This document shows, one piece after another, positions 13,526 to 18,241 of a DNA stretch of 64,000 nt. Below the pieces are notes generated by a model that saw nothing but the letters and a program-made list of their open reading frames with translations, was not told the origin of the DNA and ran no database searches. A program made the position numbers and the translations under genes. Each line of letters opens with the position of its first letter. The stretch's first letter is position 1. The DNA is from Thermodesulfovibrio aggregans (GTDB taxonomy: Bacteria; Nitrospirota; Thermodesulfovibrionia; Thermodesulfovibrionales; Thermodesulfovibrionaceae): positions 124,001-188,000 of the forward strand of contig NZ_BCNO01000002.1 of the NCBI RefSeq assembly GCF_001514535.1, in the 5' to 3' direction.

Positions 13526-13556
13526 AAAATATTATGGCATAACAGGAGAGAATAAA

Positions 13557-13583
13557 AAAAGGGGGAGAAGTCCTCCCCCTTTT
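13557..13583 (-). terminator. Strong Rho-independent terminator after the 19-aa peptide gene
   Basis: An 11-bp stem: AAAAGGGGGAG (13573-13583 read on minus) with CTCCCCCTTTT (13557-13567), loop of five bases, followed on the minus strand by further Ts (TTTATTC). It separates the mini-unit from the downstream TPR gene. Confidence 0.88.
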
Positions 13584-13590
13584 AAAAGAC

Positions 13591-13650
13591 TTAGCAGGAA
13601 CCTTTGCATTTGCAGGTAGGCATTGCCTTTCCTGATACTTTCTTAATCAT
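13591..13650 (-). CDS. 19-residue Cys-rich peptide, unknown function
   Basis: The encoded peptide is MIKKVSGKAMPTCKCKGSC. It has an excellent Shine-Dalgarno (GGGAGGTG at 13656-13663, six to seven bases from the ATG), its own sigma70-type promoter, a structured leader and a strong terminator, which together make a complete miniature transcription unit. The C-terminal TCKCKGSC could bind a metal or be the core of a modified peptide, but no maturase gene is adjacent. The upstream gene is a DUF2148 protein and the downstream gene a TPR protein. I recognise no family. Length alone makes coding status uncertain; the signals around it are what support it. Confidence 0.6.
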   Translation of the reverse strand: MIKKVSGKAMPTCKCKGSC

Positions 13651-13660
13651 CTGAGCACCT

Positions 13661-13716
13661 CCCTTTCATAGGGATTTAAACCTCTTCATGAGGTTTATTA
13701 GAGCTTCATGCTCTAA
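13661..13716 (-). ncRNA. Leader with three tandem hairpins sharing an AUGAA loop
   Basis: Read on the minus strand. Hairpin 1 (13716-13698) has 7-bp arms TTAGAGC and GCTCTAA. Hairpin 2 (13696-13678) has 7-bp arms AAACCTC and GAGGTTT. Hairpin 3 (13673-13661) has 4-bp arms CCCT and AGGG, and its 3' arm directly abuts the Shine-Dalgarno of the 19-aa peptide. All three have the same five-base loop ATGAA although the stems differ, which points to the loop as the recognised element. The linkers are one and four bases. Transcription should start at about 13714-13718, so these hairpins are essentially the whole leader. Candidate cis-regulatory RNA. Confidence 0.65.
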
Positions 13717-13720
13717 CTAA

Positions 13721-13749
13721 ATTATATCAATTTAAGAAAAAATATCCAA
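13721..13749 (-). promoter_or_regulatory. Sigma70-type promoter for the 19-aa peptide unit
   Basis: Minus strand TTGGAT (13749-13744) and a perfect TATAAT (13726-13721) with a 17-base spacer. The expected start site is at the foot of the first AUGAA hairpin. Confidence 0.8.
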
Positions 13750-13786: not shown

Positions 13787-14329
13787 TTAGATGGGTTTTC
13801 TGTCAAAGAAAATATTTTTTCCCTTTACACTTAAGGGAATGCCAAGTATAATCTGGGCATCCATAAGTCCAAGTTTTCTTGCAGCAACACCTACTGAGTA
13901 CATTACTCTGTTGTCAACTCCCAGTTCTTTAGCAACTGAAACAAGAGAACCCACTGCAATACCCAGATCAATTGCCCTAATTGTACAGACAGGTCCTGCA
14001 TACTCAATTTCATGGGTCTTCTGCTTAAGAATCGTATTACAGTCATAACCGCAGGTACCACAATTTACTCCAACAGGTTTTTTAAAGTTCAAGCCAATAA
14101 GTATTAGTCCTTCAGCATCCCGCACATTCTGAGCATCTCTTTTAAAGAATTTATGAGTTTCCTTTTCGCCAAGCTTTTCCATCTCTCTGGCAATTGCTTC
14201 CTTTTCTTCAGGAGTAACAATTCCAGTAACAATTTCATCTTCTCCCTTTGCTTTAGGTGCTGTTCTTGCTGAGATGAGCATAAGCTTTGCCACTATTTCA
14301 ATTACTTCTTTCTCTGGATTAAGCTCCAT
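13787..14329 (-). CDS. DUF2148 ferredoxin-domain protein
   Basis: A 180-residue protein of the DUF2148 family (uncharacterised, described as containing a ferredoxin-like domain). Conserved cysteines lie in VNCGTCGYDCNT (about residues 98-110) and in AGPVCTIRAIDLGIAVGS. The N terminus matches the nitroreductase-like/DUF2148 pattern LISARTAPKAKG. ATG at 14329 follows AAGGAGG. The promoter and leader of the 19-aa peptide lie about 40 bases beyond its stop, so the two are probably separate transcripts, although read-through is possible. It probably binds an Fe-S cluster; the reaction is unknown. Confidence 0.82.
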   Translation of the reverse strand: MELNPEKEVIEIVAKLMLISARTAPKAKGEDEIVTGIVTPEEKEAIAREMEKLGEKETHKFFKRDAQNVRDAEGLILIGLNFKKPVGVNCGTCGYDCNTILKQKTHEIEYAGPVCTIRAIDLGIAVGSLVSVAKELGVDNRVMYSVGVAARKLGLMDAQIILGIPLSVKGKNIFFDRKPI

Positions 14330-17134: not shown

Positions 17135-18241
17135 AAAAGCACCAATACCGCCATATTCGATAAGTCTCTGTCTGTCTTTCTCATCCTTTACTACCTCAAC
17201 TAAAGCAGACTGCTCAATTGCCATCTCCGTTGCCTTCTCCATTAGATTATTAGCCTTCATTACACAACTTCCACACTCCATACAGCATTCTACTGGTTGA
17301 GTCGTGGCAAATCCGCAGCTTTCACAGACAAAACCATCTATGGTATAATCCTTCGCTATAACAAGTTTCATAACTCTTTTGTCTCTTAAATACTTCAAAG
17401 TATCATCAATGCCTGTTACAGAGTTTTCATTTTTTAAAGCCCTATTAATAAGTTCAGAAACAGTTTCTTTTTCCTTAGATTTTTCGTACCCTTCAATGAT
17501 TGGAAGAACCTTTTCTAAAACCTCTTCTTTTGAAGCATGTTTTTCAATATTTGTCCTTCCTATTATCTTCATCTTTATTTCCTCAGGAAACATATCCATC
17601 AAATGGGAAATAGCCTCATCAGGACCGGCAACAATAAGTCTTCTTATGTCTCTGTCTTTTAGAAAATCTCCGAATTTGTCAATTACATCCTTTAAGTGCA
17701 TTTTTACATGATAATCAATATGTCTTTCATATCTTTTTTCTGCAAGTGCAAACCAGCCACCTTTTTTATGTTTTCCGGGAACATCTTCATGTTCAATCAT
17801 TCCGTACTCTTCAATATCACCGAGAAACACCATGAATACTCTTGCTGTCCGTTTATCAACAAGAAGAACTCCATATTTCTGATAATTATCAAGTAAATCA
17901 AAGAGTGGATTTGTATAAGGGGTTTTATCTACAACTAAATTGTCTTTAAGTTCCACATTTAAATCATATCTTACCCACAAATCTTTTTTGCTACAGCTAT
18001 AGATAACAAGAGACTTTTTAAAGGACTCTCTTTCACTTTGAAGGAATTTTTCTATTTTTTCAATATCTTCTTTGCAGGCATTCTGATCTTTCTCTGGTAA
18101 GGCTTTTACAAGATTTTTAAACTTTGAAAGATAAGCTTGCTTTTTTCTTTCCTGTGGAGAAACATTAAGAAAAAGACTCAAAACAAAAGCATCATCAAAT
18201 TTAACTTTTTCAAGACTCTCTAAATCCTTTCTTTCAAACAT
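17123..18241 (-). CDS. Bacterial eRF1-like (baeRF) family protein with C-terminal zinc ribbon
   Basis: A protein of about 372 residues. The N-terminal two-thirds match the bacterial archaeo-eukaryotic release-factor (baeRF) family: LSLFLNV near the start, GVLLVDKRTARVF, then GKHKKGGWFALAEKRYERH, which corresponds to the GGQ-like loop position. Here the loop reads GGW and lacks the usual SQ after it. The C terminus has a four-cysteine zinc ribbon (CESCG...CMECGSC). The ATG at 18241 is preferred over the GTG at 18250 because AGGAGG sits about nine bases upstream of it. Related proteins are suspected to act on ribosomes or peptidyl-tRNA; that is unproven for this one. Confidence 0.75.
   Translation of the reverse strand: MFERKDLESLEKVKFDDAFVLSLFLNVSPQERKKQAYLSKFKNLVKALPEKDQNACKEDIEKIEKFLQSERESFKKSLVIYSCSKKDLWVRYDLNVELKDNLVVDKTPYTNPLFDLLDNYQKYGVLLVDKRTARVFMVFLGDIEEYGMIEHEDVPGKHKKGGWFALAEKRYERHIDYHVKMHLKDVIDKFGDFLKDRDIRRLIVAGPDEAISHLMDMFPEEIKMKIIGRTNIEKHASKEEVLEKVLPIIEGYEKSKEKETVSELINRALKNENSVTGIDDTLKYLRDKRVMKLVIAKDYTIDGFVCESCGFATTQPVECCMECGSCVMKANNLMEKATEMAIEQSALVEVVKDEKDRQRLIEYGGIGAFLRF

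Follow-up and report, generated by a model that had tools for sequence, protein, structure and literature searches.

Why should a gene for a peptide of only 19 residues be preceded by three hairpins that carry the same loop? This question is raised by a compact unit on the minus strand of the window (the whole 64-kb stretch of DNA that was analysed). A candidate -35 box, TTGGAT (13744..13749), is separated by 17 nt from the -10 box TATAAT (13721..13726). Downstream lie three hairpins: H1, GTTAGAGC[ATGAA]GCTCTAAT (13697..13717; loop AUGAA, 13705-13709), whose 5' end is at about the predicted transcript start; H2, TAAACCTC[ATGAA]GAGGTTTA (13677..13697; loop AUGAA, 13685-13689); and H3, TCCCT[ATGAA]AGGGA (13660..13674; loop AUGAA, 13665-13669). 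They are followed by the Shine-Dalgarno sequence GGGAGGTG (13656..13663), the 19-codon open reading frame (ORF) MIKKVSGKAMPTCKCKGSC (13591..13650), which resembles a RiPP precursor, ends in CKCKxSC, and has related units in the order, and an intrinsic terminator with an 11-bp stem and a U-run (13554..13583). All these elements had been listed in the first-pass annotation and were verified here. The promoter stands in the window by its sequence and spacing, and a TATAAT-like box is found at the same place in the leaders of the genus, but relatives show no clear conservation of the -35 box. The last hairpin, which had been said to abut the Shine-Dalgarno sequence, is indeed closely associated with it; in fact, the 3' arm of H3 overlaps it.

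The stems of H1, H2, and H3 are mutually unrelated, and all three loops are AUGAA. Among hairpins with stems of at least 5 bp, these three form the only run of nearby hairpins with one common 5-nt loop in the 64 kb; other ANGAA hairpins in the window are single, and those inspected look coding, so they were rejected. The folded unit has a z-score of -4.26, and none of 200 shuffled sequences was equally stable. An Rfam scan of the window at the gathering threshold returned tRNA only and no leader-RNA family. The peptide gene is flanked by a DUF2148 gene and a TPR gene; the former (a ferredoxin-domain gene, window 13787-14329, minus strand) lies directly upstream of the unit, as it does in some relatives within the genus, but not in all.

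All 15 genomes of the genus that were searched contain the unit, with 76-91% DNA identity, and weak matches occur outside the genus; H1 is retained in 14 of 15 other species within it. A search of the order with a degenerate DNA pattern for CKCKxSC followed by a stop codon gave matches in 102 of 176 genomes, most of the surveyed genomes being metagenome-assembled, and a reversed control pattern matched none in the genomes listed. In a collection of species, the pattern also matched named records of the Nitrospirota (including Thermodesulfovibrio sp.) and the Desulfobacterota, and it gave chance matches in other phyla. Filtering left 127 units, which encode 109 different peptides; nearly every one has 19-20 aa, and the consensus is M-x-I-[KR]-K-V-x-K-K-x-x-T-T-CKCK-x-SC. 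Since the search pattern itself demanded the ending CKCKxSC, this ending does not count as separate support; the family filter made use of the basic N-terminal stretch, whereas the T before CKCK was unconstrained. No Pfam or NCBIfam model matched the peptides tested, and relatives of 20-22 aa led to no NCBIfam family. One contig (L246, G156:C26) carries two near-identical copies of the peptide gene with its leader, 1.5 kb apart.

In 59 of the 127 units, the SPASM motif CxGGCR is encoded just upstream of the peptide. The adjacent protein is a radical SAM/SPASM enzyme, and its scores lie far under every NCBIfam cutoff. Its nearest sequence relatives in the PDB are SkfB and PqqE, and its predicted fold (mean pLDDT 77, with the C-terminal SPASM domain modelled poorly) best matches SkfB and SuiB. 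The N-terminus is predicted to run strand-strand-strand-helix-helix and is RRE-like by this order of secondary structure alone. In the genus of the window, the maturase is encoded away from the peptide gene; in the window's own genome, it is found at G000:C1:70787-71935, with 49% identity to the linked maturase. A conserved short peptide is thus encoded beside a radical SAM/SPASM maturase that resembles SkfB and SuiB, with a putative RRE and a predicted fold like that of characterised RiPP maturases, which makes a role as RiPP precursor probable.

To see what is constant in the leaders of these peptides, every hairpin with a 5-nt loop and a stem of at least 5 bp was taken, with no selection on loop sequence. 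The 64 hairpins have A at position 1 in 54 cases, G at position 3 in 58, A at position 4 in 60, and A at position 5 in 59, with position 2 free. In other words, the identical AUGAA loop noticed at first holds for the three hairpins in the window, and the constant across the family is A-N-G-A-A; similarly, a third hairpin is particular to the window's genus, other groups usually having two. Base 2 varies even within a single leader: L019, for example, has both AUGAA and AAGAA, and L219 is another case. At least one ANGAA hairpin occurs in 73 of 125 peptide leaders and at least two in 44 of 125, where dinucleotide shuffles give 0.5 and 0, and neighbouring loops are 19-21 nt apart in 53 of 60 pairs. 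By the criteria used here, 52 of the 127 peptide units have no ANGAA hairpin, so the peptide does not require such a leader. In the Desulfobacterota, the hairpin next to the Shine-Dalgarno sequence is TTTC[ANGAA]GAAAG, a different sequence with the same loop.

The stems covary. In 40 two-hairpin peptide leaders, there are 97 double-change cells against 30.4 after shuffling, and 96.8% of cells are paired against 72.7%; in a mixed set of peptide and transporter leaders, there are 83 double changes against 28.5, and 11 of 11 pairs covary. The sequences in alignments A1 and A4, like these 40 leaders, were selected for ANGAA-type hairpins, so their pair counts are biased upwards; the dinucleotide-shuffle control of hairpin numbers and the unselected loop counts are free of this bias (the generic alignment A4 replaced A3, whose linker was gapped inside hairpin 2). 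In the 40 leaders, the upstream stem, of which H2 is the counterpart in the window, shows both-sided changes at all 6 pairs, with 99% of cells paired. The Shine-Dalgarno hairpin, of the H3 type CCCU[ANGAA]AGGG, is nearly invariant among the peptide leaders of the order, the 40 included, as expected from a sequence that doubles as the ribosome site. It had been proposed beforehand that homologues should combine a constant loop with covarying stems, and this is what the covariance analysis found. Two degenerate two-hairpin matches without a clear peptide, L305 (G134:C10:15297-15346) and L317 (G024:C29:77-125), lie downstream of a receiver-like gene and are possibly decayed leader copies.

Is the hairpin pair confined to the peptide? 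A covariance model built from the peptide leaders and run over 175 genomes of the order recovered peptides that the DNA pattern had missed and also ANGAA hairpin arrays preceding genes for TonB-dependent receptors. A second, generic model of the hairpin pair extended it to most complete genomes of the genus and to three genomes of f28, a family that belongs to the phylum but not to the order. In a scan of 396 genomes of the phylum, all 62 listed matches with E <= 0.01 were, where placeable, either peptide leaders (about 47) or leaders of metal-uptake genes (15). These two classes account for the strong matches of both models in the order and the phylum; weak matches (e.g., L312, inside a coding sequence, and L322) were dismissed as chance.

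The generic model found two such leaders in the window's own genome, each a tandem ANGAA pair with a terminator, on the minus strand and upstream of a TonB receptor operon: G000:C1 ~576456-576487 (17457-17488 of region L376, which is G000:C1:559000-578500) and G000:C1 ~569086-569120 (L376 10087-10121). The operons in this region encode TonB receptors with a CooC-like ATPase, TrmO, a FecCD-type ABC transporter, and DUF4198. Overall, the targets include TonB receptors, NikL (over its curated cutoff), CbiM, DUF4198, CbiQO, FecCD/BtuF-type ABC transporters (of the periplasmic-binding-protein type), ExbBD/TonB, a CobN-like chelatase, the CooC-like ATPase, TrmO, and a methyltransferase, those without an HMM match being named by eye from sequence. 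In these transporter leaders, the loop spacing is mostly 18-20 nt. Nickel/cobalt uptake is represented by L402, where the pair and a terminator are followed by a NikL equivalog, CbiM, and DUF4198, and by L384, an ECF cluster; NikR is absent from 20 of the 21 carrier-group genomes examined. Because some operons, with CobN-like proteins or a TonB-hemin-like receptor, resemble heme, siderophore, or corrinoid uptake more than nickel uptake, the metal of the regulon is uncertain: judged from gene content, it may be nickel, cobalt, or iron, and nickel or cobalt fits most members.

Several further observations were made in these clusters. In two genomes, a cobalamin riboswitch precedes a TonB receptor gene neighbouring an ANGAA-controlled one (L339:13509-13683, L340:2068-2277), so that two RNA systems occur within one uptake cluster; Rfam matches near other loci are cobalamin riboswitches and one tRNA. 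CobN/Mg-chelatase-like proteins of about 800 aa are encoded downstream of ANGAA-controlled TonB receptors (L377:14110-16515, L378:2237-4705, L381:1767-4148) and recall HmuS heme de-chelatase systems; CobN-like HmuS proteins are known from heme uptake (PMC12583661). At L389:1822-2635 and L340:5438-6269, an ANGAA pair with a terminator stands before a methyltransferase gene (the L339 homologue belongs to Methyltransf_25), and a TonB receptor gene comes next; this methyltransferase may make or modify a metallophore. By eye, an MNT-like nucleotidyltransferase and a HepT-like small gene, a possible toxin-antitoxin pair, lie inside the metal-uptake cluster (L376:10158-11007; same place in L377 and L378).

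How could the same pair serve both classes? In the transporter leaders, three arrangements were found. In arrangement A (L340, L341, L401-L403), the 5' arm of hairpin 1, together with its loop, is the pairing partner of the terminator's 3' arm, GCCANGAAG with CTTCNTGGC-UUUUUU, and the free loop base N2 covaries with its terminator partner (C-G, U-A), ACGAA standing with TTCGTGGC and AUGAA with TTCATGGC. In arrangement B (L342-L344, L376-L383, L386, L387), hairpin 2 and the terminator overlap, the former by its 3' arm and the latter by its 5' arm, GGTC[ANGAA]GGCCGTG...CACGGC-UUUUUU. In arrangement C (L315, L318, L329), the terminator is absent, and the Shine-Dalgarno region of the receptor gene, TCTTAGGAG, has its complement in the left arm of hairpin 2, CTCCTAAGA. 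Folding with and without the downstream arm swaps hairpin 2 for the terminator in L376, and both hairpins for a long terminator in L401. Since the pair competes with the terminator or with the arm that masks the Shine-Dalgarno sequence, an occupied pair should favour transporter expression. The peptide leader has no terminator ahead of the ORF, and its last hairpin holds AGGGA of the Shine-Dalgarno sequence, so that occupancy there should hinder translation. The control of the peptide and that of the transporters would thus be opposite in sign.

We think it somewhat more probable than not that these leaders form an undescribed family of cis-regulatory RNAs, in which a tandem pair of ANGAA pentaloops is bound by a trans-acting factor within a regulon for metal homeostasis, the metal probably being nickel or cobalt. 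Two short hairpins (three in the window's genus) with loops 18-21 nt apart would be held jointly by one factor, most likely a dimeric RNA-binding protein. Occupancy would switch on the transporter operons (TonB receptors, nickel/cobalt ECF systems, and iron/heme/B12-type ABC systems), and at the peptide gene it would tie up part of the Shine-Dalgarno sequence and repress translation. The signal would most likely be the availability of nickel or cobalt, and the peptide, modified by a radical SAM enzyme, would be a RiPP that binds or handles metal and is produced in the metal state opposite to that of uptake; such opposite control would fit the needs of a metal store, buffer, or user. The conserved element, its covariation and spacing, the shared gene sets, the terminator overlap, and the maturase neighbourhood are read from sequence; what we infer is a binder and its nature, the direction of control, the metal, and the modification and metal binding of the peptide. 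The fixed loop spacing suggests a two-site binder. The variation of base 2 within one leader argues against an antisense RNA, and pairing of a small RNA with the loops was rejected on this ground; it argues for protein-type recognition of A1, G3, A4, and A5. The fixed spacing and the recurrence of the pair with terminators at metal-uptake operons also strengthen the initial idea of an RNA-binding protein or a riboswitch-like tandem.

The second half of that idea needs to be weighed. The pair itself might be a riboswitch whose two loops bind a small ligand or a metal complex without a protein, a view that we hold to be unlikely but deserving of attention: invariant bases in short loops, free stems, fixed spacing, and the use of terminators and Shine-Dalgarno sites would suit a small aptamer, tandem-hairpin riboswitches such as guanidine-II exist, and none of the tested known RNA-binding regulators is common to the carriers. 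On the other side, a binding pocket would have little space in two 5-nt loops with one position free, kissing as in guanidine-II would need a self-complementarity that ANGAA loops lack, and an Rfam match is absent. It is rather doubtful, on our estimate, that the CKCKxSC peptide, once modified by the radical SAM enzyme, binds the ANGAA pair by itself or as a metal complex, so that a ribosomally made metallopeptide would regulate both itself and metal uptake; a direct metal riboswitch would be a second form of this proposal. If the hairpins merely stabilised the 5' end of the mRNA, the repeated loop being inherited through duplication, the position of H1 at about the transcript start would be accounted for, as short stable hairpins can protect RNA. 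We consider this improbable, because the stems are mutually unrelated and covary between species around fixed loops, and because the same pair and spacing recur at the terminators of unrelated operons.

Two known protein systems resemble the pair in form. ANGAA is one base away from ANGGA, the last hairpin overlaps the Shine-Dalgarno sequence, a weak RsmY match was found below the threshold (E 0.085), and CsrA is present in the window's genome, all of which would suit CsrA/RsmA-type control with the loops as degenerate sites. However, the essential GGA is missing from the loops, CsrA was not found in the motif carriers G020, G024, and G045, and the regulon and its terminators are untypical, which leaves this reading very improbable. 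The logic of ANTAR-type antitermination by a response regulator is the same as here: in the target RNAs of EutV and NasR, two hairpins with hexanucleotide loops conserved at A1 and G4 compete with a terminator, which the second overlaps (PMC3369931). The loops here are pentanucleotides with A1, G3, A4, and A5, and the ANTAR domain (PF03861) is absent from 27 of the 28 genomes examined; we give this origin hardly any chance.

The favoured reading, with a trans-acting factor on the pair, connects metal uptake at the outer membrane with a leader-RNA family and a radical-SAM peptide, both undescribed, across one order of sulfate-reducing and related bacteria, in which NikR is missing from nearly all genomes checked. 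It makes nickel/cobalt sensing in these bacteria, and the reader of the two-hairpin ANGAA code, accessible to experiment, and an element this compact, used at both terminators and Shine-Dalgarno sites, could indicate a new RNA-binding regulator or a new riboswitch class. The first-pass annotation knew of no described RNA with this pattern, and this has held: no Rfam family reaches the gathering threshold for the ANGAA element, the open-access literature searched contained nothing relevant on the peptide motif, on Thermodesulfovibrio riboswitches, or on tandem-hairpin control of TonB receptors, and two genome-wide surveys of non-coding RNA mention neither this lineage nor TonB nor nickel. A leader RNA with paired hairpins is a kind already known, whereas this RNA family, its regulon, and its RiPP-like peptide are undescribed in the open-access literature searched.

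Among known systems, the SkfB and SuiB RiPP systems share with the present one a small precursor beside a radical SAM/SPASM protein with an RRE-like N-terminus, but here the peptide has 19-20 aa with Cys at its extreme C-terminus, no NCBIfam model for maturases or precursors reaches its cutoff, and the genes are unlinked in the window's genus. NikR and cobalamin riboswitches control the same class of target genes, for nickel/cobalt and B12 uptake; compared with NikR, the element here is an RNA and not a DNA operator. Guanidine-II (mini-ykkC) riboswitches also have tandem hairpins with a common loop sequence near the Shine-Dalgarno sequence, but their loop is an ACGR tetraloop, the gene set here is one of metal uptake, and their Rfam model gave no match at the gathering score or at E <= 10, so that the parallel drawn at first is a loose one. 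CsrA/RsmA sites are similar in presenting A-N-G-x-A loops in repeated hairpins, one of them over the Shine-Dalgarno sequence, and differ in the GGA that the present loops lack and in a protein not found in several carriers. The dual-hairpin antiterminators of ANTAR proteins are alike in their two small hairpins, conserved loop bases, bivalent recognition (here a proposal), and competition with an intrinsic terminator, which is seen here in the transporter leaders and not in the peptide leader; their loop pattern is not found here, PF03861 occurs in 1 of 28 genomes, and the ANGAA element has 5-nt loops, longer stems, a fixed spacing of 18-21 nt, and a use of Shine-Dalgarno sites as well.
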